From positions 224,198-288,197 of the forward strand of contig NZ_JAKFUM010000006.1 in assembly GCF_021732705.1 (NCBI RefSeq): DNA of 64,000 nt, given 5' to 3'. A model generated the notes under the pieces. That model was not told the origin of the DNA. It searched no databases and was given only the letters and a program-made list of their open reading frames with translations. Of the stretch, positions 2 to 12,405 are shown piece by piece; within the stretch, counting starts at the first letter, position 1, and every line of letters starts with the position of its first letter. The position numbers and the translations under genes are program-made. The DNA comes from Nevskia sp. (GTDB lineage: Bacteria > Pseudomonadota > Gammaproteobacteria > Nevskiales > Nevskiaceae).

Positions 2-364
2 TACAGCGCCGGTGCGCACGGCATCATGACCTTGAACGACTTCAAGTCGATCGAGGGTGACAAGTTTCACGGCATCGGCTCGCTGCCGGTGCGGCTCGGC
101 GTTCGCGGCGCCGCGTTGACTGCCTGCGCGATCATGGCGCTGCCGCAGGTCGTGGTCATCGCGCTGCTGCTGCACTGGCAGATGTCCGGGCACGCGATGG
201 CCATCGCCGCGTTGCTGGCGGTGCAGCTGATCATGATGAAGCGCTTCCTCGAAACACCGCGCGAACGTGCGCTCTGGTACAGCGGCTTCGGCATTCCGCT
301 GTACGTCGGCGGGATGATGGTCAGCGCCTTCGCCGTCCGCTTCGCGCAGGAGCTCAGCGCATGA
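2..364 (+). CDS. bchG: Bacteriochlorophyll synthase BchG, C-terminal part (5' end outside window)
   Basis: This is the last ~120 residues of an integral-membrane UbiA-family prenyltransferase that esterifies bacteriochlorophyllide a with a C20 isoprenoid alcohol. The frame is open to the window edge. It begins YSAGAHGIMTLNDFKSIEGD, which matches the second conserved polar loop of chlorophyll synthases (GAHGIMTLNDFKSxEGD); the rest is three hydrophobic helices and a short tail. An internal ATG at 26 is not the true start. The stop overlaps the ATG of the next gene by 4 bases (ATGA), so translation is probably coupled. The family call rests on the motif plus the bchG-bch2-bchP gene order, which is conserved in purple bacteria. 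Confidence 0.93.
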   Translation, partial: YSAGAHGIMTLNDFKSIEGDKFHGIGSLPVRLGVRGAALTACAIMALPQVVVIALLLHWQMSGHAMAIAALLAVQLIMMKRFLETPRERALWYSGFGIPLYVGGMMVSAFAVRFAQELSA

Positions 365-1740
365 AGCCCCTGGCGCCGCGAGCCGCGTCGCAGCCGGCCG
401 ATCTCGGCTGGTTCGGCATCGTCCGGCTTGGCTTCGTGCAGGCCGCGCTCGGTGCGATCGTGGTCATTGCCACGTCGACGATGAACCGTGTCATGGTCGT
501 CGAACTGGCATTGCCGGCGATGCTGCCGGGCGCGCTGGTTGCGCTGCATTACGCGGTTCAGATCCTGCGTCCGCGGCTTGGCTTCGGGTCCGACGTCGGC
601 GGGCGGCGCACGCCGTGGATCATCGGTGGCATGGCGGTGCTGGGGCTGGGTGGCGTGCTGGCGGCACTCGCGATCGGCCTGATGGCTTCGGCACTGACGG
701 CCGGCATCGCGCTGTCGGTGCTGGCATTCCTGCTGATCGGCGTCGGTGTCGGCTCGGCCGGCACCTCGCTGCTGGTCCTGCTGGCCAAGCGCGTCGATCC
801 GTCGCGTCGCGCGGCAGCGGCGACCATCGTCTGGCTGATGATGATCGCGGGCTTCGTGGTGACGACGGTCGTCGTCGGCAACCTGCTGGATCCTTACTCG
901 GCGCCCCGGCTGGTGCTGATCACGCTGGCAGTGGCGCTGGCCGCGCTCGCGATCACGCTGCTGGCGACGTGGGGCCTTGAAGGTCATGGCATCGGGCATC
1001 AGCAGGGCGAGGCCGACGACAAGCCGCCGTTCCTGCAGGCGCTGCGCGAAGTGTGGGCCGAATCGCGCGCGCGTCGCTTCACCATCTTCGTGTTCATCTC
1101 GATGCTGGCCTACAGCGCTCAGGATCTGATCCTGGAGCCGTTTGCCGGCTCGGTGTTCGGTTTCTCGCCCGGTGAATCGACCCGGCTCGCCGGCACCCAG
1201 CACAGCGGTGTGTTCGTCGGGATGATTCTTGTCGCGCTGGCCGGCAGCGGCTTCCGCGGGCGGCGCTTCGGCTCGCTGCAGGCCTGGACCATCGGCGGCT
1301 GCCTGGCCTCGGCACTGGCGCTGCTGGCGCTCGCGTTCGGTGGCGTCATCGGTGCCGGCTGGCCGTTGAAGGCCAATGTCTTCCTGCTGGGCGCGGCCAA
1401 CGGCGCGTTCGCGGTGTCGGCGATCGGATCGATGATGTCGTATGCCAGCGAAGGTCGCGCCTCGCGCGAAGGCGTGCGCATGGGCCTGTGGGGGGCTGCG
1501 CAGGCGATCGCCTTCGGCCTCGGTGGTTTCGCCGGCGCTGCGGCCAGCGATGTCACCCGCGGACTGGTGGGCAGCGACGGCCTGGCCTACGCGCTGGTGT
1601 TCGCTGCCGAAGGCCTGCTGTTCGTCGTCGCAGCCCAACTCGCCGCGCGACTGGCACCGGCCGCTGCCGCGACCGCAGACGCCACGGCAACTGCCGGCAG
1701 CCGCCGTGCCGACCCGAATCTGACCGCATCCCTGTCTTGA
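361..1740 (+). CDS. PucC/ORF428 (Bch2)-type MFS membrane protein
   Basis: A 459-residue protein with about twelve hydrophobic segments, typical of the PucC/LhaA/ORF428 branch of the major facilitator superfamily. Members sit in the inner membrane and are thought to deliver bacteriochlorophyll to, or assemble, light-harvesting complexes. Visible features are the N-terminal LGWFGIVRLGFVQAALGA segment, a loop RPRLGFGSDVGGRRTPWI after the second helix, and an early cytoplasmic RVDPSRRAAAATIVW stretch, all characteristic of this branch. It overlaps bchG by 4 bases and precedes bchP by 13 bases, the order in which ORF428/bch2 is found in other phototrophs. An alternative name is pucC; the exact subfamily is inferred from position. 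Confidence 0.88.
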   Translation: MKPLAPRAASQPADLGWFGIVRLGFVQAALGAIVVIATSTMNRVMVVELALPAMLPGALVALHYAVQILRPRLGFGSDVGGRRTPWIIGGMAVLGLGGVLAALAIGLMASALTAGIALSVLAFLLIGVGVGSAGTSLLVLLAKRVDPSRRAAAATIVWLMMIAGFVVTTVVVGNLLDPYSAPRLVLITLAVALAALAITLLATWGLEGHGIGHQQGEADDKPPFLQALREVWAESRARRFTIFVFISMLAYSAQDLILEPFAGSVFGFSPGESTRLAGTQHSGVFVGMILVALAGSGFRGRRFGSLQAWTIGGCLASALALLALAFGGVIGAGWPLKANVFLLGAANGAFAVSAIGSMMSYASEGRASREGVRMGLWGAAQAIAFGLGGFAGAAASDVTRGLVGSDGLAYALVFAAEGLLFVVAAQLAARLAPAAAATADATATAGSRRADPNLTASLS

Positions 1741-1753
1741 ACGAGGTAGTGCC

Positions 1754-2968
1754 ATGTCGCTGAACCCGATGCCGATTGAAACCTGGGATGTCGTCGTCGT
1801 CGGCGGCGGGCCTTCCGGCGCGACCGCGGCGAACGAACTGGCCAAGCTGGGTCACAAGGTGCTGTTGCTGGATCGCGACGGACGCACCAAGCCCTGCGGC
1901 GGCGCGATTCCGCCGCGCGCGATTCGCGACTACCAGATTCCGGACGACATGCTGGTCGCCAAGATCACGTCGGCGCGGATGGTCTCGCCGAGCGACCGCA
2001 ACGTCGACATTCCGATCGACAACGGGTATGTCGGCATGGTCGACCGCGAAGCCTTCGATGAATGGCTGCGCGTGCGTGCCGCCACCAACGGCGCGGAGCG
2101 GCGCATCGGCACGTTCGAGGAGCTGACGCGCGACGCCGACGGCACCGCGCTGATCCACTACCGGCCGGGTCACGCCGCGAAAGGCGGCGTGACCTTGAGC
2201 CTGCGCGCCCGCAGCGTCATTGGTGCCGATGGCGCGAAGTCGCTGGTGGCGCGGCAGACGGTGCGCGGCGCCGATCGCATGAAGTTCGTGTTCGCGTATC
2301 ACGAGATCGTGCGCGCGCCGAAGGCACAACCGACGCTGGATTACGACGCGCGGCGCTGCGATGTCATCTACCGCGGCGCGCTGTCACCCGATTTCTACTC
2401 GTGGATCTTCCCGCACGGCGATACCGTCAGCATCGGCACCGGCAGCGCCCACAAGGGCTTCTCGATGCGCACGTCGATCGGTGAACTGCGCGCGAAGACC
2501 GGGCTCGATGGCTGCGAAACGCTGCGGCGCGAAGGCGCGCCGATTCCGATGAAGCCGCTGAAGCGCTGGGACAACGGCCGCGACGTGGTTCTGGCTGGCG
2601 ATGCCGCCGGCGTCGTCGCGCCGGCCTCGGGCGAGGGCATCTACTACGCGATGCTCGGTGGCGAGCTGGCCGCGCAGGCCGTGCATCAGCTGCTGATCAC
2701 CGGCGATGTCCGCTCGCTGAAGCTGGCGCGCAAGCGCTTCATGCGCGATCACGGCTTCGTCTTCTTCATCCTCGGCATCATGCAGCGGTTCTGGTACTCC
2801 ACCGAAAAGCGCCGCGAAAGCTTCGTCAAGATCTGCCTCGACAAGGACGTGCAGAAGCTGACCTTCGAGTCGTACATGAACAAGAAGCTCGCGCGGAAGA
2901 AGCCGATGGCGCACGTGCGCATCTTCTTCAAGGATCTGGCTCATCTCGTCGGTTTCGCGCGGGCCTGA
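1754..2968 (+). CDS. bchP: Geranylgeranyl diphosphate/bacteriochlorophyll reductase BchP
   Basis: A 404-residue FAD-dependent reductase that converts the geranylgeranyl tail of bacteriochlorophyll to phytyl using three successive reductions. The N-terminus has the dinucleotide-binding GGGPSG at residues 17-22 followed by an acidic LLLDRDG strand end, then KPCGGAIPPRAI, a signature of the ChlP/BchP family. A second FAD motif (VVLAGDAAGVVAPASGEGIYYAM) lies near residue 280. The length matches the family (about 390-400). The start at 1754 has GAGG a few bases upstream. It is the third gene of a bchG-bch2-bchP run and probably shares its promoter. Confidence 0.95.
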   Translation: MSLNPMPIETWDVVVVGGGPSGATAANELAKLGHKVLLLDRDGRTKPCGGAIPPRAIRDYQIPDDMLVAKITSARMVSPSDRNVDIPIDNGYVGMVDREAFDEWLRVRAATNGAERRIGTFEELTRDADGTALIHYRPGHAAKGGVTLSLRARSVIGADGAKSLVARQTVRGADRMKFVFAYHEIVRAPKAQPTLDYDARRCDVIYRGALSPDFYSWIFPHGDTVSIGTGSAHKGFSMRTSIGELRAKTGLDGCETLRREGAPIPMKPLKRWDNGRDVVLAGDAAGVVAPASGEGIYYAMLGGELAAQAVHQLLITGDVRSLKLARKRFMRDHGFVFFILGIMQRFWYSTEKRRESFVKICLDKDVQKLTFESYMNKKLARKKPMAHVRIFFKDLAHLVGFARA

Positions 2969-2984
2969 GCGGATCACGACGACG

Positions 2985-3248
2985 ATGGAACACTTCTTCG
3001 CCAGCGGCCGGGTCGTCGATCTGGTGCTGTTCGTGATGCTGGCCGAAGCGGTGCTGCTGATCTCGCTGCATCAGCTCAAGGCGCGCGGACCGGCGCCGGT
3101 CGATCTGATCGTCAACCTGCTGTCCGGATTCTGTCTGCTGCTGGCCTTGCGGGCAGCCCTGTCCGGAGCGGGTTGGCACTGGATCGCGCTGGCGCTGACC
3201 GGCTCGCTGATCGGGCATCTGGCGGATCTGCGACGACGCTGGCGCTGA
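2985..3248 (+). CDS. Small membrane protein downstream of bchP
   Basis: An 87-residue protein with three predicted hydrophobic helices (about residues 10-30, 37-58 and 63-82) separated by short basic loops, ending in DLRRRWR. It starts 16 bases after bchP and is probably its last operon partner. Small membrane ORFs are found at this place in some proteobacterial photosynthesis clusters, but I know no defined function. The hydrophobic profile and coding character support a real gene; a role in pigment-complex assembly would be guesswork. Confidence 0.7.
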   Translation: MEHFFASGRVVDLVLFVMLAEAVLLISLHQLKARGPAPVDLIVNLLSGFCLLLALRAALSGAGWHWIALALTGSLIGHLADLRRRWR

Positions 3249-3506
3249 CAGGCTGCACGGTCCGTCCGCTGTCCGGGTCATCGGACGGGACGGCCTTCCA
3301 TCGGTACGGTTCACGCGGCACCGAGGTACCCATGCACGCCTGGTCGAACGGCGACAGTCGGCACATGCCAGCCGGCACGATTGCTTCCCGCACCAGTGCC
3401 CTTGGTGTACCGTACTCGCTTGTGCGTTGCCGCACTGCCCTTCGTCTGCCATCTCCGGCGCCTTTTCGCGCACGGGCTTTGGTAAACCCCGCTGTCCTGG
3501 CTAAAC

Positions 3507-3524
3507 CGTTCGAATGGTCGAACG
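3507..3524. promoter_or_regulatory. Inverted repeat upstream of the ppsR-like gene (candidate operator)
   Basis: The 334-base gap 3249-3582 holds no convincing gene. Its clearest structure is CGTTCGAATGGTCGAACG, two perfect 7-base arms around ATGG, lying 59 bases before the ppsR-like start. It does not match the PpsR consensus TGT-N12-ACA. It could be a binding site for another dimeric regulator or a chance palindrome. I saw no clear -35/-10 pair in the gap. Confidence 0.35.
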
Positions 3525-3582
3525 ATCTTGAGGCCTCCTGCTTGAGCGTCCGATCCACCTTGATGAACTGTCGGGCCTCCGC

Positions 3583-4794
3583 ATGGGGGCGCCCGTGACG
3601 ATGCGTGAACGCGATCTCGGGGCACTGTCCGGTCTGGCACCGGAAGTGGCCGAGATGCTGGTATCGGTCGGCAGCGACATCGCGCTGGTCGTCGATGGCG
3701 ATGGCGTGATCCGGCAGATTTCGATCGGCGGTACCGAGCCGGTGCGCTCGATGGCGGACGAGTGGCTGGGCCGCCCGCTGGTCGACACCGTCACCGGCGA
3801 GACCCGGCGCAAGGTCGAGCAGTTGCTGGCCGATGCGGCGTCGACCGGGCTGTCGCGCTCGCGCCAGGTCAATCATCCCTCGCGGCTCGGCATCGACATT
3901 CCGATCGCGTATTCCGCCGTGCGGCTGGGCCGCGAAGGCCCGGTGCTGGTCGTCGGCCGCGACATGAGCGTGGTCTCGGCGCTGCAGCAGCGGCTGCTGC
4001 ATGCCCAACAGGAAATGGAACGCGACTACTGGCAGCGTCGCCAGAGCGAGACGCGTTATCAGCTCTTGTTCCAGATCGCGACCGACGCCGTGATGGTGAT
4101 CGACGCGACCTCGCTGAATGTGGTCGATGCCAACCGCGCCGCGGCCCGCCTGTTCGGCCTGCCGCTCGACCAGATCATCGGCAAGCGTGCGACCTTGCCG
4201 CTGCACGAGCAATCACGCGCGGAGATCAACGAACTGTTTGCCGCCGCGCGCCTCGGCGGCCGCGCCGGCGAAGCGGAAGCGCTGCTGCCGGAGCATCGCG
4301 GCATGGTGCATGTCTCGATCACGCCGCTGCGGACCGAGGCCAATACCTCGCTGCTGATGCGCGTTCGGCCACTGGATCCGGACTGGCAGGTCCCGCAGGC
4401 TGGCGCACGATTGACCTCGTTGATGCGGATCAGCCCCGACGCGATCGTCATCACCGACGGGGCCGGTCGCATCCAGATGTCGAACCCGGCGTTCCTGCGG
4501 CTTGCGGAGATGTCGCCCGGGGTCAAGGTGCTCGGTCAATCGCTGTCGAACTGGCTCGGCGCCACGGTTCAGGATTTCGACCGCCTGCTGCAGTCGCTGC
4601 GCCGCGATTCGTCGACGCGGCAGGTGCTCAGCGCGCTGCGCCGATTCGACGGACGCCGCGTCGCGGTTGAAGTCTCGGCCGCCTGCCAGCCCGAAGGCGA
4701 CGACGAATCGTTCGGCTTCATCATCCGCCAGGCACAGGGCACCGGCCGCGTGCTGCTGACCAAGCCGGACTCGCCGGACCCATCGGTCCACTGA
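3583..4794 (+). CDS. PpsR/CrtJ-like PAS protein lacking the C-terminal HTH
   Basis: A 403-residue homologue of the photosynthesis repressor PpsR/CrtJ. The order is N-terminal PAS (about 15-130), a glutamine-rich helical linker (LLHAQQEMERDYWQRRQSET, about 140-160), PAS1 (about 160-265) and PAS2 (about 275-390). Canonical PpsR is about 440-475 residues and ends in a Fis-type helix-turn-helix after PAS2. Here the protein stops at KPDSPDPSVH and no HTH follows. The three frames up to 4987 show no HTH remnant, so a recent frameshift is unlikely. The only cysteine I see is in PAS2 (AACQPEG), so redox-active cysteines known from other PpsR proteins are missing. Adjacent bphP suggests it still partners a phytochrome. 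ATG 3583 is used; GTG 3595 and ATG 3601 are alternatives. Confidence 0.85.
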   Translation: MGAPVTMRERDLGALSGLAPEVAEMLVSVGSDIALVVDGDGVIRQISIGGTEPVRSMADEWLGRPLVDTVTGETRRKVEQLLADAASTGLSRSRQVNHPSRLGIDIPIAYSAVRLGREGPVLVVGRDMSVVSALQQRLLHAQQEMERDYWQRRQSETRYQLLFQIATDAVMVIDATSLNVVDANRAAARLFGLPLDQIIGKRATLPLHEQSRAEINELFAAARLGGRAGEAEALLPEHRGMVHVSITPLRTEANTSLLMRVRPLDPDWQVPQAGARLTSLMRISPDAIVITDGAGRIQMSNPAFLRLAEMSPGVKVLGQSLSNWLGATVQDFDRLLQSLRRDSSTRQVLSALRRFDGRRVAVEVSAACQPEGDDESFGFIIRQAQGTGRVLLTKPDSPDPSVH

Positions 4795-4987
4795 TCGTCG
4801 TCGGCAGTCCCCACTCGCGGTCGCACAGCGCGGAATCCGTCCCCTCAGCAGGGCTGCCGACGCGCCCGCCGTTTTTGCGTTGCAGCAATTCCGCGACGGA
4901 CAGTCGCGGCGGACGCTATACACTCCAGCCTCCGGCAGATCGTCTGCAGGCAGCGCGATCCGGCACCTCGAGGATGGGAGGAAGAGC

Positions 4988-7183
4988 ATGAACGAAGCGC
5001 TGGCCAGTCCCGCTTTCGGCGAAGCCACTCTCAGCAATTGCGAGCGCGAGCTGATCCACCTCGCCGGATCAATCCAGCCGCATGGCGTTCTCCTGGTGGT
5101 GGACGAAGCGACGCAGCGGATCGTGCAGGCCACGGTCAACGCCGCCGAGTTCGTCGGGCTGGCGGCCGGCGAGTTGCTCGGACAGCCGCTGTCGCGCCTC
5201 GGCGGTGACCTGCCGCGGCGGCTGGAATCGATGCGCGTCAGCGACAGCCTCGACGAGCCGACGCCGCTGCGCTGCACGGTCGACGACGGCATTCGCGGGA
5301 CTGCACTGGAAGGCACGCTGCATCGGCGTCAGGGCTGTCTGATCGTCGAACTCGAACGCCGCGACGGCGATACCGTGGTCGGCGGTCGTCGCTACGAGTC
5401 GACCCGGCCGATCGGCCACGCCGACGTGGCAGCGGCGGTCAAGAAGTTCAGCAGCGCGCTGAATCTGCCATCGCTGTCGAACGCCATCGTCAGCTGCGTG
5501 CGCGAGATGACCGGCTACGACCGGGTGATGGTCTACCAGTTCGATCCGGATGGTCACGGCGAGATCATCGCCGAGGCGCGCGAGCCGCGGCTGGAATCGC
5601 TGCTCGGCCATCACTATCCCGCCACCGACATTCCGCAGCGGGCGCGCGAGCTGTACATCCGCAATCGCGTGCGCGTGCTGGTCGATGTCCATTACGAGCC
5701 GGTGCCGCTGCTGCCGCGCACCTTGCCGTCCGGCGACGAGCTGGACATGTCGCTGTGCCACCTGCGCAGCATGTCGCCATTGCATCTGCAGTACCTGAAG
5801 AACATGGGCGTGACCGGCACGCTGGTGGTGTCGCTGGTGCGCGAGGGGCGGCTGTGGGGGTTGATCGCCTGCCACCACTATTCGCCGCGCTACGTGCCGT
5901 ACGCGGCGCGCGCCGTGCTCGAACTGCTGGCGGAAGTGATCTCGACCCGGATCGCGGCGATCGAGAACTACGTGCAGTCGCAGGTCGAGGTGCTGGTCAA
6001 GCGGCTGGAACTGCGGCTGATCGAGGCGACGTCGACCGATGGCGACTGGCGGCAGGCGCTGTTCCGCAATCCGCGCACCTTGCTGACGCCGATCGATGCG
6101 ACGGGCGCGGCGCTGTTCCACGACGGCGAGATCATGACCGCCGGCGATGTGCCATCGACGCCGGACCTGCGGGCGCTGATGCAGTGGGTCGGTTCGCAGA
6201 CCTTCGATACCGTGTTCACCTGTTCCTCGGTCGTGCGCAAGAACCCGGCATTCGCGGCGATGGCACCGACGGCCAGCGGCGTGATGGCGGTGACCCTGTC
6301 GCCGTCGCGTCCGGATTACCTGATGTGGTTCCGGCCCGAGCAGCCCTGCGAATACACCTGGGCCGGTGATCCGGCGAAGCCGCTGATCAACGATGATCCG
6401 ATGACGCTGTCGCCGCGGCGCTCGTTCGCGGCGTGGTCGGAAATCGTGCGCGGCACGGCCGCACCGTGGACGCGCGCCGAAACCGTGCTGGCTCGGGCGA
6501 TCGGCCACTCGCTGTCGGACATCATCCTGCAGATCCAGGCGGTGCGGCTGCTGATTGCCCAGCATCAGCTCGATCTGGTGCGCTCGCAGGTCGGCAACTC
6601 GAAGGATCCGGTGGTGATCGCCGATCCGGCCGGCCGCATCCTGTTCTCGAACGAAACCTTCCAGCGTCTGCCCGGCAGCCCGGCGGCGCAGCTGCAGACG
6701 CTCGACGATCTCGCCGGCCTGTTCGTCGAGCCCGAGGAAGTGCGCGCCATGCTGTGGCGGCTGCAGCGCGAGCGCCTGGGCTGGCGCGGCGAGGTGTCGC
6801 TGGTGACTGCCGGCATCGAAGCGCTGCCACTCGCGGCGCGGGCCGATGTCGTGGCCGGGCAGGGCTCGTCGATTCTCGGCTTCATCCTGATCCTGACCGA
6901 CCTCACCGCGCGCAAGCGTGTCGAGTCGGCCCGGCGGCACTTCGAAAGCGCGATCCTGCAGACCGAGCGCAGCGAATCGCTGCAGTCGCAGGGCGGCAGT
7001 CCGCTGCGCGAGCCGGACGAGGTCATGGCCGCGATTCTCGCCAATGCCAATGTCGCCGCGATGGAGATTGCCGACGCCGCCAGCGAAAGCGGCGTGGCGC
7101 CGCTGCTGGAGGAACTGGAAGTTTCGGCCCAGCGCGCGGCGGCGCTGTATCGCCAACTGCGCAGCTACGTTCGCGGCGACTAG
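4988..7183 (+). CDS. bphP: Bacteriophytochrome (PAS-GAF-PHY-PAS, no histidine kinase), BphP1 type
   Basis: A 731-residue red/far-red photoreceptor. Cys18 in LSNCERELIHLAGSIQPHG is the expected biliverdin-attachment cysteine ahead of the N-terminal PAS. The GAF domain carries PATDIP (Asp about 214) and the PHY tongue carries PRRSF (476-480). A further PAS (about 540-650) and a helical tail ending in LYRQLRSYVRGD follow, with no H-box or ATPase domain. This matches Rhodopseudomonas BphP1 and Bradyrhizobium BphP, which relieve PpsR repression by direct binding instead of phosphorylation. The start is ATG 4988, with GGGAGGAAG just upstream; the frame is open further upstream, but that part is not phytochrome-like. 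It follows the ppsR-like gene by 193 bases. Confidence 0.95.
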   Translation: MNEALASPAFGEATLSNCERELIHLAGSIQPHGVLLVVDEATQRIVQATVNAAEFVGLAAGELLGQPLSRLGGDLPRRLESMRVSDSLDEPTPLRCTVDDGIRGTALEGTLHRRQGCLIVELERRDGDTVVGGRRYESTRPIGHADVAAAVKKFSSALNLPSLSNAIVSCVREMTGYDRVMVYQFDPDGHGEIIAEAREPRLESLLGHHYPATDIPQRARELYIRNRVRVLVDVHYEPVPLLPRTLPSGDELDMSLCHLRSMSPLHLQYLKNMGVTGTLVVSLVREGRLWGLIACHHYSPRYVPYAARAVLELLAEVISTRIAAIENYVQSQVEVLVKRLELRLIEATSTDGDWRQALFRNPRTLLTPIDATGAALFHDGEIMTAGDVPSTPDLRALMQWVGSQTFDTVFTCSSVVRKNPAFAAMAPTASGVMAVTLSPSRPDYLMWFRPEQPCEYTWAGDPAKPLINDDPMTLSPRRSFAAWSEIVRGTAAPWTRAETVLARAIGHSLSDIILQIQAVRLLIAQHQLDLVRSQVGNSKDPVVIADPAGRILFSNETFQRLPGSPAAQLQTLDDLAGLFVEPEEVRAMLWRLQRERLGWRGEVSLVTAGIEALPLAARADVVAGQGSSILGFILILTDLTARKRVESARRHFESAILQTERSESLQSQGGSPLREPDEVMAAILANANVAAMEIADAASESGVAPLLEELEVSAQRAAALYRQLRSYVRGD

Positions 7184-7199: not shown

Positions 7200-7919
7200 T
7201 CAGGCCGCCGCCAGCGCTTCGAACAGCTCGGCATGCAGGCGAAAGCTGCATTGCGCTTCGTGCACGATGGCGTCGAGTTCCGCTTCCGGCAGCACGATGT
7301 GATCGAGCCCGGCGCGAAACGCCGCGGCCAGCGCATCGACGCCGGGCGCGGCGAATTCGTGGAAGCGCGTGCCGTCGCCGGTTTCCGGCAGCCGCAGCGC
7401 AGCGCGCGCGATGCGCCGCAGAATCTGCCCGCCGTTGAGATCGCCGAGATAGCGCACGTAGGCGTGCGCCACGAGTTTCGACGGCGCCTCTGCCGCCAGC
7501 GCCTGCAGGTGCGCGGCGTAGCGCCGTGCCGGCGTCGTCAGCGGCAAGGCGGTCTGCCAGCCGCTGCCGTGCAGATGATCGAGATCGGCTGCAAGCGCGG
7601 CACTGCGCGCCAGCGCCGGACTGTGGATGGCCTCGATCGCCGGAGACTGCCGGTGCTCGGTCAGGGCGGCTTCAAGGCTGGAATAGATCGCGTGCAGGTT
7701 GCGCAGCAGCAGGCAGTAGCGCTCGCGGCTGATCGTGCCGCGCAGGAAGGCCGGCATCATCCCGCTGCGTTCGACCTCGCGATGCAGCGCGTGGGTGCCG
7801 AGCTTCAGGCGATCGGCCAAGCTCACTGGCGACAATCCGGCCCACGGGCCGCGCGCGCGATGCGGGTTCGCGCGCGAGTGTCCAGTTTGCAATCGTGCGG
7901 TATCAACAGAAATTGACAC
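7200..7919 (-). CDS. bphO: Heme oxygenase (biliverdin supply for the phytochrome)
   Basis: A heme oxygenase of the HO-1/HmuO fold that opens heme to biliverdin IX-alpha, the chromophore of the adjacent bacteriophytochrome. The proximal ligand motif THALHREVE places the iron-binding His at residue 46, and YLGDLNGGQILRRI is the conserved distal helix. As written, it starts at a GTG (7919) and has 239 residues. The first ~30 residues are not family-like, and a second GTG at 7826 (MSLADRLKLGTHALH) would give a more typical 208-residue protein. It converges with bphP 16 bases apart and diverges from bchI. Confidence 0.88.
   Translation of the reverse strand: MSISVDTARLQTGHSRANPHRARGPWAGLSPVSLADRLKLGTHALHREVERSGMMPAFLRGTISRERYCLLLRNLHAIYSSLEAALTEHRQSPAIEAIHSPALARSAALAADLDHLHGSGWQTALPLTTPARRYAAHLQALAAEAPSKLVAHAYVRYLGDLNGGQILRRIARAALRLPETGDGTRFHEFAAPGVDALAAAFRAGLDHIVLPEAELDAIVHEAQCSFRLHAELFEALAAA
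7901..7918 (-). promoter_or_regulatory. PpsR-like box between bphO and bchI
   Basis: On the minus strand this reads TGTCAATTTCTGTTGATA, which matches the PpsR/CrtJ palindrome TGTC-N10-GACA at all but one position (GATA for GACA). It lies about 77 bases before bchI and overlaps the first codons of bphO only if the upstream GTG start is used. If bphO starts at 7826 the box sits in the shared divergent promoter region, where a PpsR-type regulator could control both genes. One mismatched copy is weak evidence by itself. Confidence 0.45.
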
Positions 7920-7994: not shown

Positions 7995-9023
7995 ATGGCT
8001 CAGCCGTTCCCGTTTTCCGCGATCGTCGGCCAGGACGAGATGAAGCTGGCGCTGCTGATCGCGGCGGTCGATCCGTCGATCGGTGGCGTCATGGTGTTCG
8101 GTGATCGCGGCACCGGCAAATCGACCGCCGTGCGTGCGCTCGCCGCGCTGCTGCCGCCGATGGAAGCGGTGATCGGCTGCCCTTATCACTGTGCGCCGGA
8201 TGACCGCAGCGAAGCCTGCGCCGAAAGCCTCGCGAAGCTCGGCAACGCCCGGAAGAAGACCCATCTCGTGCCGGTGCCGGTGGTCGACCTGCCGCTCGGC
8301 GCGACCGAAGACCGCGTGGTCGGCGCGCTCGATCTGGAGAAGGCGCTGTCGCAGGGCGTCAAGGCCTTCGAACCGGGCCTGCTGGCGCGCGCCCACCGCG
8401 GCTTCCTGTATGTCGACGAGGTCAATCTGCTCGAAGACCATCTGGTCGATCTGCTGATCGATGTCGCCGCCAGCGGCGAGAACGTGGTCGAGCGCGAAGG
8501 CCTCAGCGTGCGCCATCCCGCGCGCTTCGTGCTGGTGGGCAGCGGCAATCCGGAAGAGGGCGAACTGCGGCCGCAGTTGCTCGATCGCTTCGGCCTGTCG
8601 GTCGAGGTCGGCACGCCGAAGGATCTGGCGTCGCGCGTCGCCGTCGTCCGCCGCCGCGATGCCTTCGAGCAGGATCGCACCGCCTTCATCGAAAGCTGGA
8701 AGAAGGACGATGACAAGGTGCGGCGCCGCATCGTCAGCGCCCGCAAGCAACTGGCGAACCTCGTGGTCAGCGATGCGCTGCTCGAGAAATCGGCCGAGCT
8801 GTGCCTCGCGCTCGGCACCGACGGCCTGCGCGGCGAACTGACGCTGATGCGCGCTGCGCGGGCACTCGCCGCACTCGATGGCGCCAAGACCGTGACCGTC
8901 GAGCACCTGAAGCGCATCGCGCCGCCGGCACTGCGCCACCGCCTGCGACGCAATCCGCTCGACGATGCCGGCAGCAGCGTCCGCGTCGACCGCGCGATCC
9001 AGCACGTGTTTGCCGCGAGCTGA
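7995..9023 (+). CDS. bchI: Magnesium chelatase AAA+ subunit BchI
   Basis: A 342-residue AAA+ ATPase that, with BchD and BchH, inserts Mg2+ into protoporphyrin IX, the first committed step to bacteriochlorophyll. Walker A is GDRGTGKST at residues 36-44 and Walker B is GFLYVDEVNLL. The BchI-specific segment EAVIGCPYHCAPDD lies between them, and the sensor region VLVGSGNPEEGELRPQLLDRFGL follows. Length is normal for the family. The next gene bchD begins within about 25 bases, so the two are co-transcribed. Its promoter must lie in the 75-base gap shared with bphO. Confidence 0.97.
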   Translation: MAQPFPFSAIVGQDEMKLALLIAAVDPSIGGVMVFGDRGTGKSTAVRALAALLPPMEAVIGCPYHCAPDDRSEACAESLAKLGNARKKTHLVPVPVVDLPLGATEDRVVGALDLEKALSQGVKAFEPGLLARAHRGFLYVDEVNLLEDHLVDLLIDVAASGENVVEREGLSVRHPARFVLVGSGNPEEGELRPQLLDRFGLSVEVGTPKDLASRVAVVRRRDAFEQDRTAFIESWKKDDDKVRRRIVSARKQLANLVVSDALLEKSAELCLALGTDGLRGELTLMRAARALAALDGAKTVTVEHLKRIAPPALRHRLRRNPLDDAGSSVRVDRAIQHVFAAS

Positions 9024-9045
9024 TGCGCGCACGGACCGGCAGCCG

Positions 9046-10902
9046 GTGAAACTGACCGAGCAGGACCGCACGCGCTGGGCCGATGCCGCGACGGCGGCGA
9101 CCCTGTTCGCGGTCGATCCGGCCGGGCTCGGCGGCGTGCTGCTGCATGCCTTGCCGGGGCCGGTCCGCGAGCGCTGGCTGGGCCTGGTGCACGGCCTGCT
9201 GCCGGCGGGCACGCCGTGGCGGCGGGTGCCGCTGAACATCAACGATGGCCGCTTGCTCGGCGGGCTCGATCTGTCGGCCACCCTGTCCGCGGGCCGGCCG
9301 ATCGCCGAACGCGGCCTGCTGGCCGAAGCCGATGGCGGCGTCGTGGTGCTGGCGATGGCCGAACGCGTGTCGACCGGCATGGCCGCGCGGCTCGCCGCAG
9401 CGCTGGACGACGGCGAACTGCGCATCGAGCGCGAAGGGCTGGCGCAGGTCGTCGCTGCCCGCATCGGCGTCATCGCGCTCGATGAAGGCATCGAGCCGGA
9501 TGAAGTCGTGGCGCCGGCGCTGGTCGACCGTTTCGCGTTCCTGGTCGACCTGCACGACCTGCGCGGCATCGATGAAGGTCTGGAGCTGCCGGCGCCGGAC
9601 ACCATCGCCGCCGCCCGTGCGCGGCTGGCGCAGGTGCAATTGCCGGAAGCGCTGATCGAAGCGCTGTGCGGCACGGCACTGGCCCTCGGCATTCCGGGTC
9701 TGCGCGCGGTGCAGCAGGTGGCGCGCGCCACGCGGGTCATCGCCGCACTCGAAGGTCGCGACCTTGCGACCGAGGAAGACGCGTCGATCGCCGGGCGTCT
9801 GGTGCTGGCCCCGCGCGCCACGCAGGTGCCGCAGCGCGAAGCGCCGCCGGAACCGCCGCCGGACGCCGAAGCACCACCTGAACCGCCGCCCGAGCCTCCG
9901 CCGGAACAGCCACCCGAACCCGATGCGCCGCCCGAACCGCCGCCGGAAGGCGAGGACAGCGAGAAGGACAACGAGCCGCCGCCGTTCGACCTCGAAAAGG
10001 CGATCGAGGACATGATCCTCGAAGCGACCAAGGCCGCGATCCCGCCGAATCTGCTGGCGCAGTTGCAGGCCGGTGCCGCGAAAACCGGCAAGGCGAGGGC
10101 GTCCGGCAAGTCCGGCGCGGTGCAGAAGCTGGCGGCCCGCGGCCGACCGGCCGGCGCGCTGCGTGGCGAGCCGCGCGCCGGCTTGCGGCTCAGCGTGATC
10201 GATACCCTGCGGGCCGCGGCACCGTGGCAGCGCCTGCGCCAGCGCGAACTGGCCACGCGTCCGCCGAGTCCGTTCCCGACGCCGAAAGTGCTGGTGCGGC
10301 GCGAGGATTTCCATGTCACCCGGCTGCAGCAGAAGCGCGAGACGACGACGATTTTCGTCGTCGATGCCTCCGGCTCGTCCGCGATGAACCGGCTGGCCGA
10401 AGCGAAGGGCGCAGTCGAACTGCTACTGGCCGATTGCTACGTGCGGCGCGATCGCGTTGCCATCATCGGCTTTCGCGGCACCACGGCCGACGTGCTGCTG
10501 CCGCCGACGCGCTCGCTGTCGCGGGCCAAGCGCAGTCTCGCCGGCCTGCCGGGCGGTGGCGGCACGCCGCTGGCCACGGCACTCGATGCCGCGATCGAAC
10601 TGGCCGATGCCGTCGCCCGCCGCGGCGAAACGCCGGGCATCGTGCTGCTGACCGACGGCCGCGCCAATGTCGCGCGTGACGGCACCGGCGGTCGCGCCAA
10701 GGCCGAGGACGATGCGATGGCCGCTTCGCGCCGCCTGCGCGCGGCCGGCTTCGCGACGCTGTTCGTCGACACCTCGCCGCGGCAGCAGCCGGTGGCGCAG
10801 CGACTGGCGTCCGAAATGCGCGCAACCTATCTGCCGCTGCCGTCGGCCGATGCCCGCACCCTGTCGAGCGCCGTGCGCGCCGTCGGTCCCGGCAGTCGCT
10901 GA
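9046..10902 (+). CDS. bchD: Magnesium chelatase subunit BchD
   Basis: About 618 residues, with a degenerate N-terminal AAA+ domain (about 15-240), a proline- and acid-rich linker (about 266-305, many EPPPE units) and a C-terminal von Willebrand A domain. The VWA metal site DxSxS is at 440-444 (DASGS), followed by the GGGGTPLATAL and LLTDGRAN motifs. BchD forms the platform ring with BchI in Mg-chelatase. I chose GTG 9046 because the homologous sequence (KLTEQDRTRWADAATAATLFAVDPAGLGG) begins there and it follows the bchI stop. ATG 8965 would overlap bchI by about 60 bases. In many phototrophs bchO follows; it does not here. Confidence 0.94.
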   Translation: MKLTEQDRTRWADAATAATLFAVDPAGLGGVLLHALPGPVRERWLGLVHGLLPAGTPWRRVPLNINDGRLLGGLDLSATLSAGRPIAERGLLAEADGGVVVLAMAERVSTGMAARLAAALDDGELRIEREGLAQVVAARIGVIALDEGIEPDEVVAPALVDRFAFLVDLHDLRGIDEGLELPAPDTIAAARARLAQVQLPEALIEALCGTALALGIPGLRAVQQVARATRVIAALEGRDLATEEDASIAGRLVLAPRATQVPQREAPPEPPPDAEAPPEPPPEPPPEQPPEPDAPPEPPPEGEDSEKDNEPPPFDLEKAIEDMILEATKAAIPPNLLAQLQAGAAKTGKARASGKSGAVQKLAARGRPAGALRGEPRAGLRLSVIDTLRAAAPWQRLRQRELATRPPSPFPTPKVLVRREDFHVTRLQQKRETTTIFVVDASGSSAMNRLAEAKGAVELLLADCYVRRDRVAIIGFRGTTADVLLPPTRSLSRAKRSLAGLPGGGGTPLATALDAAIELADAVARRGETPGIVLLTDGRANVARDGTGGRAKAEDDAMAASRRLRAAGFATLFVDTSPRQQPVAQRLASEMRATYLPLPSADARTLSSAVRAVGPGSR

Positions 10903-10997: not shown

Positions 10998-11624
10998 ATG
11001 AGCGCTGCGTCCGAGCCGCCGATCGAACCTTCCTTCGAGCCGAGCATCGAGGACTGGGCCCGCCGTGCGCTGCAGCGCTGGCCGAATGTGCCGCATCTGT
11101 ATGGCTGGCTGCGGCTGGATCGCCGCGGTCGCTGGCTGATCCGCGGCGAGCTGATCACCCGGCCGCAGATCATCGAGACCATCGCCGCCAACTACGCCTT
11201 CGATGCCCGCGGCTGCTGGTACTTCCAGAACGGACCGCAGCGCGGCTACATGGCTCTGGATGCCGCGCCGCTGATCCTGTCCGCCCCGGCCGACGGCGAT
11301 GCGCTGGATACCCATCTGGCCAAGCCGGCCGGCAAGGTTTCGCGCGTGGCGCTCGATGAAGGCGGCGGGCTGTGGATGGTCACGCAGCGCGGTCCCGGCT
11401 GGCTGACCGACCGCGATCTCGACTGGGCACTGGCGCGGATCTCGACCACCGACGGCACGAACCTCGACGAGGCGATGGCGCAGGCGCTGGCGCAGCCCTC
11501 CGGTAGCGCCACGCGGCTGCAACTGACGCTCGACGGCGCGGCGATTCCGATCGAGCGCCTCGACGAACGCGATGTGCCGGCGCATTTCTATTTCGTCACC
11601 GAGCCGACCGCGTCGACGCCCTGA
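10998..11624 (+). CDS. Conserved hypothetical protein downstream of bchD
   Basis: A 208-residue soluble protein with no signal peptide or membrane segment. It contains VPHLYGWLRLDRRGRWLIRGE near residue 31 and NYAFDARGCWYFQNGPQRGYM near residue 62. These resemble a DUF family of short proteins common in beta- and gammaproteobacteria (I associate it with DUF2946, but that name is from memory and uncertain). It lies 95 bases after bchD and 214 bases before fliL, on the boundary between photosynthesis and flagellar genes. Nothing ties it to either pathway except position. Confidence 0.75.
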   Translation: MSAASEPPIEPSFEPSIEDWARRALQRWPNVPHLYGWLRLDRRGRWLIRGELITRPQIIETIAANYAFDARGCWYFQNGPQRGYMALDAAPLILSAPADGDALDTHLAKPAGKVSRVALDEGGGLWMVTQRGPGWLTDRDLDWALARISTTDGTNLDEAMAQALAQPSGSATRLQLTLDGAAIPIERLDERDVPAHFYFVTEPTASTP

Positions 11625-11838: not shown

Positions 11839-12405
11839 ATGTCCACCGCCGAAGCCGCCGCACCGCCGAAGTCGAAGAAGACCCTGTTCATCATCATCGG
11901 TGCCGTCGTGGCGTCGGCGGCGATCTCCGGCGGCGCCGTGTTCTTCCTGACGCCGAAGCATCCGGCGCCGGCGGCGGCTGCCGAAGGCGAGGGCGAATCC
12001 GCCGAGGCGGCACCGGCCGAGCACGGCGAAGCGCCGAAGCCCGAGCACGGCGGCGGGGGCGAAAAAGCCAAGGGCGGCAAGCACGGTGGCAGCAGCTACT
12101 ACCCGCTGACGCCGGCCTTCGTCGTCAATCTGAGCGGCGACGACACCTCGCACTTCCTGCAGGTCGAAATGGAATTGCAGGTCTCCGGCGCCGCCACCGA
12201 GGACGCGCTGAAGCAGCACAACCCGCAGATCCGCAATTCGGTGCTGATGCTGCTGAGCCAGCAGTCCGCGGCCGATGTCGCATCGCGCGAAAGCAAGGAA
12301 GCGCTGCAGGCCAAGGTGCTGGCCGAGATCCAGCGGATCCTGACCAAGGAGACCGGCAAGGCCGGTGTCGACGCAGTGTTCTTCACCAGCTTCGTCATGC
12401 AGTAA
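11839..12405 (+). CDS. fliL: Flagellar basal body-associated protein FliL
   Basis: A 188-residue single-pass inner-membrane protein that surrounds the stator at the motor and raises torque. There is a short cytoplasmic tail, a TM helix at about 16-36 (TLFIIIGAVVASAAISGGAVFFL), a long Ala/Glu/Gly-rich low-complexity linker (about 40-85) and the C-terminal FliL domain (YYPLTPAFVVNLSGDDTSHFLQVEMELQ onward). The linker is longer than usual. First gene of the operon, directly behind the sigma-54 promoter and followed by fliM after 28 bases. Confidence 0.92.
   Translation: MSTAEAAAPPKSKKTLFIIIGAVVASAAISGGAVFFLTPKHPAPAAAAEGEGESAEAAPAEHGEAPKPEHGGGGEKAKGGKHGGSSYYPLTPAFVVNLSGDDTSHFLQVEMELQVSGAATEDALKQHNPQIRNSVLMLLSQQSAADVASRESKEALQAKVLAEIQRILTKETGKAGVDAVFFTSFVMQ

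Follow-up and report, generated by a model that had tools for sequence, protein, structure and literature searches.

The Nevskia genome analysed here encodes, within its photosynthesis cluster, a PpsR that consists of an N-terminal PAS domain (N-PAS), a Q-linker, PAS1 and PAS2, and that has no Fis-type helix-turn-helix (HTH). The protein, hereafter short PpsR, lies at positions 3583-4794 of the window, the whole stretch of 64,000 nucleotides of Nevskia sp. DNA that was analysed. As judged from sequence comparisons, the finding is larger than first noted, since this natural HTH-less PpsR is conserved and stands within a lineage that has lost residues fixed in the canonical HTH. The initial annotation contained neither the conservation of the truncation, nor the membership of short PpsR in a larger group of second copies (PpsR2), nor the existence of a species in which the short protein persists in a genome that gave no phytochrome match.

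A PpsR without an HTH beside a bacteriophytochrome

The gene and its domains are as follows.

3583..4794, + strand: short PpsR (HTH-less PpsR2), from the ORF, the match to TIGR02040 positions 2-361/442 and the alignment of seven genus copies
3670..3963, + strand: N-terminal PAS, limits approximate, from the AlphaFold secondary structure and the match to 4hh2
3967..4083, + strand: Q-linker helix, from the model helix at residues 118-156 of the shared part and from conservation
4084..4371, + strand: PAS1, limits approximate, from Pfam PAS and the AlphaFold model
4393..4734, + strand: PAS2, limits approximate, from Pfam PAS and the AlphaFold model
4735..4791, + strand: C-terminal tail replacing the HTH, predicted disordered, ending in DPSVH

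Counted from the ATG at 3583, the ORF encodes 403 amino acids; relatives share the protein from 3616 onwards, and translation may in fact begin with the GTG at 3595 or the ATG at 3601. The NCBIfam PpsR profile (TIGR02040) matched short PpsR with 281.2 bits, above its cut-off of 275.4, and the match, which starts at profile position 2, stops at position 361 of 442, indicating that the HTH part is missing. Four of the seven copies found in the genus (see below) exceed this cut-off and three fall just below it (269.6-274.1 bits). Pfam detected PAS domains and no HTH in short PpsR, none of the seven copies matched HTH_8 at E 0.01, and reading the three forward frames past the stop in all seven revealed no HTH-like stretch. 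The HTH cysteine is absent, and the sole cysteine left sits in PAS2. AlphaFold predicted N-PAS, a long Q-linker helix, PAS1, PAS2 and a disordered end (pLDDT <50 at model residues 375-392), with good domains and poor packing between them (pTM 0.37). The solved fold closest to this model is 4hh2, deposited as 'PpsR without the HTH motif', which also ranked first with the sequence profile of short PpsR (aligned over 10-382 of 384 residues). The domain content, the lack of an HTH in the downstream frames and the loss of the redox cysteine, all proposed in the initial annotation, were thereby confirmed. No PpsR site of the form TGTN12ACA was found upstream of the gene, and the four occurrences in the window (5.44 expected) represent no enrichment. 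Likewise, neither a sigma-70-like promoter nor a terminator was detected within 3200-5100, where shuffled sequences give 0.2 and 0.8.

The neighbouring genes place short ppsR between bacteriochlorophyll genes and a phytochrome.

361..1740, + strand: pucC-like transporter (PF03209, 322 bits)
1754..2968, + strand: bchP (TIGR02023, 514 bits)
2985..3248, + strand: 87-aa ORF with no Pfam family, between bchP and short ppsR (tblastn)
4988..7183, + strand: bphP, an RpBphP1-type bacteriophytochrome, from Pfam PAS-GAF-PHY-PAS, C-terminal helices, the 4gw9 match (611 bits) and the model
7200..7919, - strand: heme oxygenase (biliverdin supply), facing bphP (PF01126, E 4.3e-54)
7995..9023, + strand: bchI (TIGR02030, 535 bits)
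8965..10902, + strand: bchD (NF009943, 771 bits), with the ORF start as listed, overlapping bchI

The 87-aa ORF downstream of bchP recurs in the loci fetched from the seven relatives (tblastn), with weaker matches in L074 and L075. Beyond the bchI-bchD block are a DUF2944 gene (10998-11624) and a FliL flagellar gene (11839-12405), so that flagellar genes seem to adjoin the photosynthesis cluster.

The window bphP is the sole PHY match in its genome. Its Cys 18 is invariant across 11 aligned sequences and presumably has the role of the biliverdin cysteine. Pfam detected no kinase domain in the product, whose model closes with a PAS domain plus helices, and its best PDB match was 4gw9 (611 bits); beyond 4gw9 and 5oy5, a chain named BphP1, the top PDB match reached 340 bits. 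The structure 4GW9 is described as RpBphP1 without its HOS domain (PMC6899989), and the BphP1-type neighbour named in the initial annotation is thus recovered. The window displays the trait of BphP-linked PpsR2 systems: the BphP next to the gene has an additional PAS domain and ends in helices with no kinase, and a heme oxygenase is nearby.

The genome holding the window (4.53 Mb, 28 contigs) was also searched for a second, full-length ppsR. Just before the window edge, or reaching into the window, are bchG, a full-length PpsR and a gene with a B12-binding domain. The last may be AerR-like; the domain comes from the family search and the name AerR is our own label. The full-length copy (PpsR1, L003:7919-9340) ends 858 bases before the window, matches TIGR02040 over positions 1-442 with 534.6 bits and carries HTH_8, which rules out a genome devoid of full-length PpsR. 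With such a protein in the same genome, the suggestion that the truncated product is an adaptor, a decoy or a poisoning subunit belongs to the right class of idea.

Conservation of short PpsR in the genus

Among 18 genomes of the genus (Nevskia-like Gammaproteobacteria), seven encode an HTH-less PpsR, and the same seven encode a full-length PpsR with both the HTH and its cysteine. A further genome of the genus, G012, has the full-length protein only. In 146 genomes searched, including that of the window, the short form occurred as a close copy in these seven, the other six matching at 61-68% identity in that search (59-68% identical to the window's over all comparisons). An order-wide search of 85 genomes, 18 of them from this genus, revealed PpsR in eight, all of this genus, and the short form in seven of the eight. 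The initial annotation had pointed out that a full HTH in close relatives, together with a recent stop in this strain, would speak against its reading; all six of the other copies lack the HTH instead. The loss of the HTH in the genus is therefore, on this comparative evidence, old and maintained.

After PAS2, the seven short proteins have a variable stretch followed by a constant end, with D, S and H at positions -5, -3 and -1 in 7/7 (pattern D-x-S-[IV]-H), and the codons of this end vary in part synonymously. The reading frame is intact in all seven species. Some residues of the Q-linker are invariant, and this segment is the best conserved of the protein, with a mean top-residue frequency of 0.958 (seven copies, measured over a shorter stretch). 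Over the 21 species pairs, pairwise NG86 dN/dS ranged from 0.09 to 0.45 for short PpsR and from 0.03 to 0.19 for PpsR1. These values indicate that the short protein is under purifying selection, yet less constrained than PpsR1. Purifying selection and the conserved C-terminal end argue against decay, while the faster evolution leaves room for a relaxed function.

The gene bphP adjoins short ppsR in six of the seven genus genomes, and a heme oxygenase is also present at six of the seven loci. In G014 (95% complete), neither bphP nor heme oxygenase was matched in the fetched locus and no PHY match was found genome-wide. Its short ppsR is intact and in the usual place, with dN/dS of 0.25 and 0.30 in the pairs formed with its two closest relatives. 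BphP cannot therefore be the sole reason for short PpsR in that species.

A wider PpsR2 lineage and its HTH

A scan of GTDB contigs identified seven further relatives, recorded as Rhizobacter sp. (two), Burkholderiaceae, Aquincola tertiaricarbonis, beta proteobacterium, Betaproteobacteria and Gammaproteobacteria. Six of these scan matches have a phytochrome match as a neighbour. At L057, the remaining relative, what the scan matched is a canonical PpsR, and a separate, shorter PpsR-like protein adjoins a phytochrome. A canonical PpsR is present in each of the seven genomes. Among 399 genomes of the family of the Rhizobacter record, PpsR was found in 65 and a divergent copy (PpsR2) in 31 of these, a count that may miss second copies since four candidates were scored per genome. 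Altogether 35 PpsR2 were fetched, and a bphP match is adjacent in 30/35 on the fetched DNA, where contig ends may hide some. A PHY match occurs in 30 of the 31 genomes with PpsR2 and in 7 of the 34 without, within the 65 PpsR genomes (Fisher p 1.3e-10, kinship ignored). Two genomes, G193 and G259, have PpsR2 and no phytochrome match, and in two others, G589 and G185, the search found PpsR2 and no canonical PpsR. Outside Gammaproteobacteria, none of the 27 PpsR-bearing genomes of a phylum sample (four candidates scored each) had two PpsR matches, and none did among 12 genomes of the family of G628. Nine PpsR-bearing records were plasmids.

In a tree of PAS columns, 41 PpsR2 and short rows were separated from 36 canonical rows by one branch (bootstrap 97, SH-aLRT 90). 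This careful tree was built without four long-branch rows (the short protein of L057, L105, L106 and L082). A quick tree of 81 rows gave SH-aLRT 97 for a PpsR2 plus short group of 42 rows, which included L082 and left L057, L105 and L106 outside. Based on these trees, the short proteins of the genus group with PpsR2 copies that are mostly phytochrome-linked and largely betaproteobacterial. They may be sister to the remaining PpsR2 or may have arisen among them, the PpsR2 minus the short forms falling on one side of a branch with a weak support of 63 in the quick tree. The counts omit L046-L049 and L054, which are on the same contigs as L040-L044; the incomplete canonical PpsR of L062 was left out of A3 and kept in the tree, which in turn omits L085. 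Only some of the PpsR2 genomes contributed a canonical copy; of the 23 beta/gamma canonical rows, 15 are from genomes beyond the genus.

The HTH region of this lineage departs from that of canonical PpsR. The comparison centred on six positions (N R R Q Y K) that we take to be DNA-facing by analogy with Fis. The full set is found in 22 of the 23 beta/gamma canonical proteins, the remaining one keeping five, and in all 15 canonical proteins of other classes. Whereas 38/38 canonical proteins thus retain five or six, the 34 PpsR2 counted, a set that omits L082 and the short protein of L057, keep none (15 proteins), one (16) or two (3). Similarly, the HTH cysteine is present in 38/38 canonical proteins and 0/35 PpsR2. 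Where canonical PpsR is at least 95% constant, PpsR2 showed a mean retention of 0.78 over 24 PAS sites and of 0.46 over 22 HTH sites. With nearly all six positions changed, it appears that canonical DNA recognition was abandoned in a PpsR2 lineage and that the whole domain was discarded in this genus. HTH_8 at E 0.01 was nonetheless detected in 26/36 PpsR2 (the protein of L057 included), against 22/22 canonical proteins scanned and none of the short forms, so that a Fis-like fold often remains, which argues against describing the wider lineage as having simply lost the domain. A434, A446, L449 and L456, probably HTH core positions, have frequencies of 0.91-0.97 in PpsR2, and the HTH of the wider lineage may have another use, even altered DNA binding.

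Several loci of this survey have features of their own. The phytochromes beside PpsR2 at L079 5186-7426 (G411) and L081 5147-7489 (G605) look degenerate on reading. The N-terminal Cys motif and the DIP motif are absent from both, PHY is matched only over the first 116-118 of 183 positions, and the C-terminal helices resemble, on reading, those of the window BphP; G411 and G605 each have a second PHY match elsewhere in the genome. These two phytochromes may no longer hold a chromophore while keeping their output end. At L085 (G150), on the minus strand, a PpsR-like frame of 303 aa with PAS domains and no HTH match is near a phytochrome with, by reading, a kinase-like end and near a weak AerR-like match. 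The PpsR-like protein of L057 (9444-10586, G152) is a 380-aa frame with no HTH match, outside the PpsR2 lineage, and the phytochrome beside it is 43% identical to the window's. At L082 (3900-5141, G434), a 413-aa PpsR2 frame has no HTH match and no bphP match on the fetched DNA; in the tree its branch is long and adjoins that of L072, where PpsR2 extends into the HTH, and it may represent either an independent HTH loss or a decaying copy.

Known systems and possible modes of action

With its N-PAS, Q-linker, PAS1 and PAS2, short PpsR resembles PpsR/CrtJ proteins (TIGR02040) such as Rhodobacter sphaeroides PpsR in both profile and fold; unlike them it is missing the HTH and the HTH cysteine, and for want of an HTH it does not belong with the DNA-binding PpsR. 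The closest arrangement is that of Rhodopseudomonas palustris and photosynthetic Bradyrhizobium, where a second PpsR also stands beside a BphP in the photosynthesis cluster. The Bradyrhizobium order, as given in PMC10569730, is ppsR1, bchG, an MFS gene, bchP, cycA, ppsR2 and BrBphP, which is the order seen here except that the 87-aa ORF takes the place of cycA. Short ppsR is thus probably the syntenic ppsR2, and orthologous to alphaproteobacterial PpsR2, on the strength of gene order and of these papers. PpsR2 of both genera is described as a repressor (PMC6899989, PMC10569730). According to PMC6899989, the HTH cysteine is absent from wild-type R. palustris PpsR2 as well, and this protein, in contrast to short PpsR, has a C-terminal HTH. 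Two laboratory constructs are also comparable, 4hh2, which has the same domain content, and the Q-PAS1 optogenetic fragment, whose region is included in short PpsR. Short PpsR, however, is natural, conserved over species and equipped with its own conserved C-terminal end. The PpsR anti-repressors named in PMC10037100 and PMC11406998 are AppA, AerR/PpaA and LdaP; they are likened to short PpsR by proposed role only (light-controlled lowering of PpsR repression), whereas short PpsR derives from PpsR itself. In the portions of the open-licence PMC literature available, no report of a natural HTH-less PpsR was found.

PpsR works as an oligomer, and its DNA binding needs the HTH. With N-PAS, Q-linker and PAS1 kept and the HTH gone, short PpsR can affect genes only through partners, of which PpsR1 would be the obvious one and BphP the second. 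By eye, short PpsR agrees with PpsR1 at 21/34 positions of the Q-linker consensus. We give about even credence to a model in which short PpsR is a co-regulator that does not bind DNA, enters mixed oligomers together with the full-length protein and is under BphP control. Short PpsR would act via protein contacts rather than on DNA, assembling with the PpsR1 of the same cluster through N-PAS, Q-linker and PAS1. Mixed oligomers would leave fewer DNA-competent PpsR1 complexes, which would make the short protein an anti-repressor or a dominant-negative co-subunit, and BphP, in one of its two light states, would bind short PpsR and so set its free amount. If far-red light makes BphP bind, as in Rhodopseudomonas, light would remove the anti-repressor and repression would rise, the opposite of the light response in Rhodopseudomonas. 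The mixed oligomers, the binding of BphP and the direction of the effect are inferred. Two observations bear on the BphP half of this model. Since G014 has no PHY match, it cannot be general; G193 and G259 also have PpsR2 with none. Furthermore, a review identifies Q-PAS1 as the minimal BphP1-binding part of PpsR2 (PMC7555876), and a SAXS model of the RpBphP1-RpPpsR2 complex places the contacts at the HTH and PAS2 of PpsR2 (PMC6899989); if the SAXS contacts apply here, a PpsR2 without HTH would lose one of them. For the model as a whole, the PpsR2 of G589 and G185, where the search showed no canonical PpsR, and the lack of TGTN12ACA enrichment in the window are further counterpoints.

Other roles were weighed against this co-regulator model. 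Short PpsR might deal with BphP alone, as an adaptor or decoy that buffers the phytochrome or relays its signal to another protein without ever meeting PpsR1. The adjacency of bphP in six of the seven genus genomes and at 30 of 35 PpsR2 in the wider lineage, together with the co-occurrence of PpsR2 and phytochromes, fits such a role, which we nevertheless regard as unlikely given that G014 holds its short PpsR under constraint with no phytochrome match and that G193 and G259 likewise have PpsR2 with none. These G014 data, and the occurrence of PpsR1 in all seven genomes, would rather suit a protein that modulates PpsR1 only, as a dominant-negative subunit independent of BphP whose linkage to bphP is historical. 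The side-by-side position of the two genes in six of seven species, and the same linkage across the wider lineage, make this unlikely too.

That short PpsR is a decaying relic heading for loss appears improbable. It evolves faster than PpsR1, G012 has no short copy, and in the wider lineage some copies (L076, L082) are cut short or stand apart from bphP; against decay, the frames are intact in 7/7 with the other six copies still 59-68% identical to the window's, and the invariant Q-linker residues, the conserved last residues and dN/dS well below 1 point to maintenance. That a normal ppsR was cut short at its 3' end by a recent frameshift or stop, or by a sequencing or assembly error, has next to no probability, and is ruled out for practical purposes by the same end in seven species and by the lack of any HTH remnant in the three forward frames.

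More tentatively, and with more doubt than belief, the co-regulator model can be extended to a stepwise scenario for beta/gamma phototrophs, in which the phytochrome-linked PpsR2 would have turned into a dedicated subunit that does not bind DNA. The recognition helix would have been eroded before the HTH was lost in this genus, where a short C-terminal signature was retained, with BphP acting on photosynthesis genes only via mixed PpsR2-PpsR1 complexes and with a light sign reversed from that of Rhodopseudomonas. If a lineage of transcription factors gave up DNA binding and still stayed next to its light sensor, it would amount to a natural dominant-negative or adaptor switch. The arrangement is also relevant to a question of BphP1-PpsR2 near-infrared optogenetics, namely whether the grip is at Q-PAS1 or at the PAS2-HTH end, for which an HTH-less partner beside an RpBphP1-type phytochrome in six species offers a natural test of the grip site. 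Short PpsR might in addition be a source of DNA-inert, light-controlled binders.

Similar cases may exist elsewhere. Roseateles depolymerans is described as having ppaA, ppsR and a 'crtJ homologue (ORF350)' (PMC10037100), and ORF350 is perhaps of the same kind as short PpsR; for Rubrivivax gelatinosus, PMC4452267 gives a single ppsR homologue. Finally, ten PpsR2 end in [LI]N (L050, L051, L061, L063, L065, L067, L070, L071, L072 and L073), which resembles the [IV]H (SIH) end of the genus and could possibly reflect a shared C-terminal signature.
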